64,000 nucleotides of DNA from Bacteroidota bacterium (GTDB lineage: Bacteria > Bacteroidota > Ignavibacteria > Palsa-1295). Shown piece after piece: positions 25,916-26,933 of this stretch. The DNA lies in contig JAFDZW010000005.1 in NCBI GenBank assembly GCA_018266755.1, positions 1 through 64,000 on the forward strand, written 5' to 3'. Within the stretch, counting starts at the first letter, position 1. Each line of letters begins with the position of its first letter. The position numbers and the translations under genes were made by a program. Under the pieces are notes generated by a model. It ran no database searches. It saw nothing but the letters and a program-made list of their open reading frames with translations, and had not been told where the DNA came from.

Positions 25916-26614
25916 TTAGTTATTATACTTAAATTGGATCGGACCCGGTTTATGGTCGTCGAGCGAGCGGTAAACACTGGTTACTTTCCCAAGGACGGCA
26001 AAGCCACTGTCTTCGGTAATGGGGATCGGTTTGAACTTCTCGTTGGCGGGTTCGAGCTCATATATTCCGCCCTTTTTACGGAAGGTCTTTACCGTAGCCG
26101 AATCATCAAGTAGGGCAACGATGATCTCGCCGTTTTCGGCCGTGTCCTGCTGTCGACAGATGACGTAGTCGCCATCCATGATGCCCTTATCCTTCATACT
26201 TTCACCCTGCACGCGCAAAGCAAACATCTTCTGAGAATCTTTGACGGGCTTATAGGCCAGCCAGCCTTCGATATGCTCGACAGCAAGGATCGGCGCGCCG
26301 GCAGTAACACGGCCGACAACCGGGATCGAGTTGCCGCCACGACCGGAGGCCGTGCGGGCCGGCAGGATTGCCCGGGATAAACCCGGACCGCCACGGACAA
26401 GAAAGCCCTTTTTAATCAACGCATCAAGGTGCTTGCGGATGCCGAACGTGGAAGAGACGTCCAGTGCTTCGGCAATCTCCAGGATCGATGGCGGATAGCC
26501 GGAAATATCGATGAATTCCTCAATAAAACCAAGGACTTGCGCCTGACGCGGCGGAAGGTCGTCGCGTTTTGGAAGGGGAGTCTGTTTTGTGGTGTCTATT
26601 CTCTCGCGTGTCAT
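25916..26614 (-). CDS. lexA: SOS repressor LexA
   Basis: 232 residues. The N-terminal winged helix (about 20-75) has LPPRQAQVLGFIEEF and YPPSILEIAEALDVSS, the usual LexA DNA-binding layout. The self-cleavage bond is A105-G106 (TAGAP). Catalytic S139 (GESMKDKG) and K176 (ATVKTF) are in place, so RecA-stimulated autocleavage is expected. It represses DNA-damage genes and normally itself. The promoter upstream is flanked by two copies of a 15-bp element that may be the operator. Helix residues differ from E. coli, consistent with a different box. Confidence 0.96.
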   Translation of the reverse strand: MTRERIDTTKQTPLPKRDDLPPRQAQVLGFIEEFIDISGYPPSILEIAEALDVSSTFGIRKHLDALIKKGFLVRGGPGLSRAILPARTASGRGGNSIPVVGRVTAGAPILAVEHIEGWLAYKPVKDSQKMFALRVQGESMKDKGIMDGDYVICRQQDTAENGEIIVALLDDSATVKTFRKKGGIYELEPANEKFKPIPITEDSGFAVLGKVTSVYRSLDDHKPGPIQFKYNN

Positions 26615-26635
26615 GATCTATACCCTTTCTGAAAA

Positions 26636-26650
26636 GATAGGTGCTCGTAA
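26636..26650 (-). promoter_or_regulatory. lexA: Proposed LexA operator, proximal copy
   Basis: On the minus strand TTACGAGCACCTATC lies just past the predicted lexA start site. It overlaps the inverted repeat GTGCT-N6-AGCAC (26641-26656). It differs by one base from the copy at 26697-26711. Confidence 0.45.
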
Positions 26651-26661
26651 AAGCACGTACC

Positions 26662-26690
26662 AATATAAGCATACTTCTGGGCAAATGCAA
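26662..26690 (-). promoter_or_regulatory. lexA: lexA promoter
   Basis: On the minus strand TTGCAT (26685-26690), a 17-bp spacer, then TATATT (26662-26667). TATATTGG also resembles the local TAnnTTTG element. The start site would fall near 26655, inside the inverted repeat. Confidence 0.6.
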
Positions 26691-26696
26691 GAGGGG

Positions 26697-26711
26697 GATA
26701 GGTGCCCGTAA
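26697..26711 (-). promoter_or_regulatory. lexA: Proposed LexA operator, distal copy
   Basis: Minus-strand TTACGGGCACCTATC, upstream of the -35 by 6 bp and 61 bp from the proximal copy in the same orientation. Confidence 0.4.
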
Positions 26712-26933
26712 TATTAAATCTTTTGGTATGATCCGAAGCCTGTGCTGGGTTCAAACAGGTCTTGAAAATAAAGATTATGCAGGAATGGGCAAAATTATTT
26801 AAAGATGGAAAGTAGCGGAATGCTCTAACTTATTGAAAACATACAAATTCACCACTTTTCCCCATTTTGGAATTTCAAACATTATTTCGTATAATTGTAT
26901 GTGTGAAGTTTGAACTGACGGTAGCCCCACCGT

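Follow-up and report, generated by a model that had tools for sequence, protein, structure and literature searches.

A predicted autoregulated lexA promoter with a 16-bp palindromic LexA box in a Kapabacteria-like bacterium

The window (the whole stretch of DNA that was analysed, 64 kb in length) carries a lexA gene, in whose upstream region the following features were distinguished:

25916..26614, minus strand: lexA, 232 aa, canonical LexA with a winged HTH and an S24 peptidase domain
26636..26640, minus strand: CTATC, flank of the proximal half-site (CTAT or CTRYY after RGCAC is conserved in the family)
26641..26656, minus strand: O1, predicted primary LexA operator, GTGCTTTTACGAGCAC, which overlaps the expected start site
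26657..26672, minus strand: O0, putative weaker box, ATGCTTATATTGGTAC, abutting O1 and spanning the -10 hexamer
26662..26667, minus strand: -10 hexamer TATATT, read from the sequence, its position kept in relatives
26685..26690, minus strand: -35 hexamer TTGCAT, read from the sequence, with a 17-bp spacer to the -10
26697..26720, minus strand: S1, GATTTAATATTACGGGCACCTATC, a single LexA-like half-site (RGCACC) plus an AT-rich arm

The lexA product matched TIGR00498 (192.9 bits versus a cut-off of 110.95) as well as PF01726 and PF00717. Its Ala-Gly cleavage site and Ser-Lys dyad (the serine of GESMKD and the lysine of ATVKTF) align with those of E. coli LexA, the E. coli and B. subtilis sequences serving as references. 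The only LexA-like match in the 3.55-Mb genome, which was scanned as a whole by pattern only, was lexA itself. Among named relatives, Candidatus Kapaibacterium and unclassified Bacteroidota MAGs come closest to the host.

A preliminary description of this region had proposed, as a candidate unusual SOS box, a 15-mer present in two minus-strand copies, the proximal TTACGAGCACCTATC (26636-26650) and the distal TTACGGGCACCTATC (26697-26711). The coordinates, read directly, proved exact: the copies differ by one mismatch, share the same orientation, lie 61 bp apart and bracket TTGCAT-N17-TATATT. The related pattern TTACGRGCACC occurs 16 times in the genome (versus 5 for the reversed control), more often than chance would give. 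In relatives the two copies have only RGCACCTAT in common (e.g. proximal AATGAGCACCTAT and distal ATTACGGGCACCTAT in G001), which indicates that some of the agreement over all 15 bases is due to chance. The proximal 15-mer consists of positions 26641-26650, i.e. the right half of a palindrome, plus the CTATC flank. The palindrome itself, GTGCT-N6-AGCAC (26656-26641), begins 5 bp past the -10, and the overlap of the proximal copy with it at the expected start site is, as had been suggested, a placement well suited to autorepression. Thus, the idea of an unusual box at this promoter is retained, with the 16-bp palindrome as its unit, and the 15-mer, whose identity is lost in relatives, was rejected as the box.

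Conservation of the palindrome was analysed in 11 genomes of the same family (f1) with complete lexA promoters, the host included. RTGCT-N6-RGCAC was found just past the -10 in all of them, although these promoters are related and do not amount to 11 independent observations. Examples of these boxes are GTGCTTTTATGAGCAC, ATGCTTTGATGGGCAC and ATGCTGTCATGGGCAC, and the box consensus is RTGCY-N6-RGCAC (16 bp, palindromic). Comparison of the subgroup of the window (four genomes) with genus g3 (seven genomes) gave 82% identity over the 18-bp box region, versus 29% for its flanks. In the window no other site scores as high as O1 against the box matrix (19.5, the next being 12.2), the matrix including O1 and its orthologs. 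The exact form GTGCT-N6-AGCAC occurs at three places in the host genome versus 36 for the reversed control, i.e. it is rarer rather than enriched; hence the case rests on the position of the sites and not on their number. Perfect copies of RTGCT-N6-RGCACCT in this genome were detected at recA, at lexA and within one ORF. Taken as a dyad-symmetric site lying over the lexA promoter and conserved in orthologs, the O1-type palindrome is very probably the SOS box (LexA operator) of this lineage.

Unexpectedly, the lexA promoters carry more than one such predicted box, in a strict 16-bp register. O0 is the third-best matrix match in the window (12.2) and forms with O1 a contiguous tandem (26672-26641, ATGCTTATATTGGTAC followed by GTGCTTTTACGAGCAC); the lexA promoter of G010 contains three boxes in the same manner (ATGCTTTGATGGGCAC, CTGCTACATCCAGCAA and GTGTTGTAAACAGCAC). 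When the matrix was scored at 128 offsets around O1 in the lexA promoters of the family, the top three were -16 (mean -1.6, ranking first), +16 (-3.7) and +32 (-5.2), compared with a mean of -23.7 (s.d. 5.1) for all offsets. Since the 11 promoters are related, the independent cases of tandem arrangement are fewer than eleven; the interiors of the g3 boxes vary but their half-sites do not, a pattern that speaks for a function of the tandem boxes. No 16-bp register was seen around 26 boxes at other genes, so the array is limited to lexA promoters.

The preliminary description had also suggested looking for the element upstream of recA and further repair genes and in orthologous lexA promoters, and both searches were positive. 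The recA box of the host (GTGCTTTGATAGGCAC / GTGCTTTGATAGGCACCT) lies six bases past the recA -10, and perfect GTGCY-N6-RGCAC sites are present in the recA promoters of eight further genomes of the family. A matrix built from the 11 lexA boxes alone gave a mean of 11.95 for the family recA promoters (shuffled 1.41 ± 0.98, z 10.8) and 10.93 for promoters of Y-family polymerase genes (shuffled 1.82 ± 0.85, z 10.7), two of which (L221 and L225) score at chance level. In the class outside this family, the recA promoters of 17 genomes scored -1.12 with the same matrix and had no f1-type box. The exact form GGTGCY-N6-RGCACC precedes recA in G003, G004, G009 and G012 and splB (a COG1533-type radical SAM protein, NF033668) in G003, G004, G005 and G006; its remaining copies in the family are at one other intergenic place (L204) or within mostly GC-rich ORFs. 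Among 13 genomes TGCYNNNNNNRGCACCTAT was detected 20 times (control, 7), largely at lexA, splB and a family of RecA-fold proteins. Against the box, several promoters contain only a single strong half-site, e.g. that of splB in the host (GTACAGTTATAAGCAC) and the proximal site of g3 recA (GATGGGCACCTAT). In the case of ruvB the sole candidate is an S1-like site 345 bp upstream, with no recognisable promoter.

In other families of the class (L258, L256, L257, L259, L240 and others) no f1-type box is present in the 300 bp before recA, and the gene seems to lie just behind another reading frame.

We consider it highly probable that the region serves this Kapabacteria-like bacterium as an autoregulated promoter of lexA, with O1 and O0 as predicted operators and S1 as an auxiliary element; LexA binding, repression, induction by damage and the role of S1 are what we infer from sequence, conservation, distribution and register. 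LexA dimers would most likely bind O1 at the lexA start site and, more weakly, the abutting O0 over the -10, the two together blocking RNA polymerase. DNA damage would then lead to RecA-stimulated self-cleavage of LexA, freeing lexA, recA, splB and the Y-family polymerase genes. S1 would act as an auxiliary upstream element, perhaps a UP-like site or a weak operator in helical phase.

The distal copy, which had been proposed as part of the candidate SOS box, does not stand as such: its left half-site is absent, RTGCY being replaced by TTAAT or a close variant in the S1 copies listed, and it is part of another element (TTTAATATTRCGRGCACC) that has a distribution of its own. S1 combines one strong half-site with an AT-rich arm (TTTAATATTACGGGCACC). 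Among the lexA promoters it is present only in those of the host, G001, G002 and G005, at a distance of 60-61 bp to the proximal half-site, and was not found at those of g3. With up to 3 mismatches allowed, the distal 20-mer GATTTAATATTACGRGCACC occurs 23 times in the host genome versus 0 for the control, and the S1 copies there number 17-23. Those outside longer repeats include the copies at recA, lexA, splB and four RecA-fold paralogs; others are in dispersed repeats of 130-400 bp. The architecture GGCACC-TTG-N18/24-TAT-N11/23-GCAC was detected 12 times (control, 0), splB being among these cases. Most copies are inverted and precede a -35 by 12-13 or 21-23 bp, two spacings that are one helical turn apart, although repeat copies are not independent and the spacing at splB, L023 and L032, where the script chose another hexamer pair, was read by eye. 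The promoter downstream of most copies is TTGACA-N17-TATNTT; no promoter of this type follows S1 at L025, L033 and L037.

These features leave an even chance that S1 is not a LexA operator at all, but a UP-like AT-rich promoter module combined with the site of another protein, acting upstream of the -35, spread with dispersed repeats and sharing only the half-site RGCACC with the LexA box. The absent left half-site, the strictly kept AT-rich arm, the spacing to the -35 and the many copies within RNA-like repeats that have no LexA box downstream (L020, L022, L027) are all consistent with such a module. However, in G001, G002 and G005 the sole perfect copy is the one at lexA, and the non-repeat copies of the host precede recA, splB and RecA-fold paralogs, genes that carry LexA boxes elsewhere in the family. 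A broader scheme, in which LexA would occupy the contiguous tandem 16-bp boxes at lexA and S1 would be an SOS module spread to about twenty places, placing degenerate RecA-fold proteins and dispersed structured RNAs under damage control, appears to us possible but rather doubtful.

The dispersed S1 repeats are non-coding, also carry a strong promoter and form five groups: (i) L020, L022 and L027, (ii) L021 and L030, (iii) L026 and L038, (iv) L029, L034 and L039, and (v) L031 and L036. No Rfam family was assigned to them; a search with 20 S1 loci gave one below-threshold miRNA match, which we took as chance. In several repeats the promoter is followed by a GC hairpin and then by Ts, the hairpin showing compensating variation (GTCCGC..GCGGAC, GCCGG..CCGGC), and the inverted repeats flanking the -10 likewise vary compensatingly between L022 and L027 (GTACATATTTC/GAAATATGTAC versus GGGACATATTTT/GAAATATGTCCC). 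Three further readings of S1 were discarded: (i) a palindromic LexA box, for lack of the left half-site, (ii) an additional promoter of lexA in which TAATAT would be the -10, having a geometry unlike that at O1 and no fitting -35 at other copies, and (iii) a member of the 16-bp register, the distance of 60-61 bp not being a multiple of 16.

LexA stands out among regulators for how often its binding motif has changed, and a count of 17 motifs has been given (PMC8565304). The literature searched contained no LexA motif from either Kapabacteria or Ignavibacteria, and in it we found GTGCY-N6-RGCAC described for no other group. The LexA motifs of the neighbouring Bacteroidetes and Balneolaeota have already been worked out. 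The LexA box of Fibrobacter succinogenes is TGCNC-N4-GTGCA, and the preliminary description saw a loose likeness to it. The likeness holds for the TGC-N8-GCA frame (here TGCTTTTACGAGCA), the palindromic form and the FCB-group host, but not for the inner C and G-T, which are replaced here (TGCTT...GAGCA or TGCCG...CGGCA), and the present box adds an outer G..C (GTGCY-N6-RGCAC). The same description was right to set the site apart from both the E. coli and the Bacillus type. CTGT/ACAG half-sites, as in CTGT-N8-ACAG, were not found in the f1 lexA boxes. The Bacillus/Gram-positive box, CGAAC-N4-GTTCG (PMC3091678), is likewise a short-spaced palindrome bound by a canonical LexA, but the half-site here is RGCAC, with no GAAC/GTTC and hence no GAAC-N4-GTTC. 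In the neighbouring phylum Balneolaeota LexA also covers lexA, recA, translesion polymerases and a radical SAM protein, although its site is a direct repeat of other letters (TTACACATATTTTWTACATA; PMC7739468), unlike the inverted repeat found here. A known SOS network with a CI-like repressor similarly comprises splB, umuC/dinB and recA, whereas a canonical LexA (PF01726) and a different box are present here.

Within the class, the lexA promoters of sister families carry quite different palindromes (read by eye in f10, f8 and f13), suggesting several switches of the LexA box. We found (i) GTGAACAAATGAGCAC and near variants in f10 (four genomes, two facing copies each), in which a GAAC half is joined to a GAGCAC half, (ii) TAGTAGA..TCTACTA in f8, and (iii) CTGTATA..TATACAG in f13, a CTGT/ACAG-type site (CTGTATATTTATACAG). 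The recognition helix STFGVRKH is nearly constant in f1, and other helices occur where the box differs. The predicted box, helix and regulon, beside at least three sister-family palindromes, may thus offer compact helix/site pairs for the study of specificity switching in LexA. The loci concerned are L055-L057 and L061 (f10), L058, L059 and L062 (f8), and L067-L069 and L071 (f13).

As the link of LexA to the box is drawn here from sequence, another regulator co-controlling repair genes might read RTGCY-N6-RGCAC while LexA binds elsewhere; we regard this as very improbable, given that lexA, recA, splB and the Y-family polymerase genes are the core LexA set, that the genome encodes one canonical LexA, and that box and recognition helix change together between families. 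That the two 15-mers are mere members of dispersed repeats, meaningless for lexA, is scarcely credible despite the 23 copies of the distal 20-mer, some of them 200-400-bp repeats, as it is already contradicted for the proximal copy, which is present in all lexA promoters of the family (most of them without the repeat), and the distal element is found at lexA in three relatives without expansion.

Under the preferred reading of the palindrome as a LexA operator, the box also points to what may be an undescribed multi-copy family with a predicted RecA/KaiC-like fold under the same putative control. Searches of Pfam, NCBIfam, PHROGs and PDB sequences gave nothing above curated cut-offs for this family. 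Eight proteins (set A1), encoded at L024, L025, L032 and L033 in the host and at L265, L268, L275 and L230 in relatives, share N-x-x-E-F. A LexA box lies upstream of three g3 members, and S1 upstream of the four members of the host and one of G011. The AlphaFold model of the family (pLDDT 75.8, pTM 0.70) matches the RecA-fold domains of KaiC and DnaB (Foldseek 1.6e-6, TM about 0.4), and where the Walker A motif would be expected the alignment shows MNRDLVKN, GENVLLNT or GDTVGENA, the GKT/S apparently having been lost.
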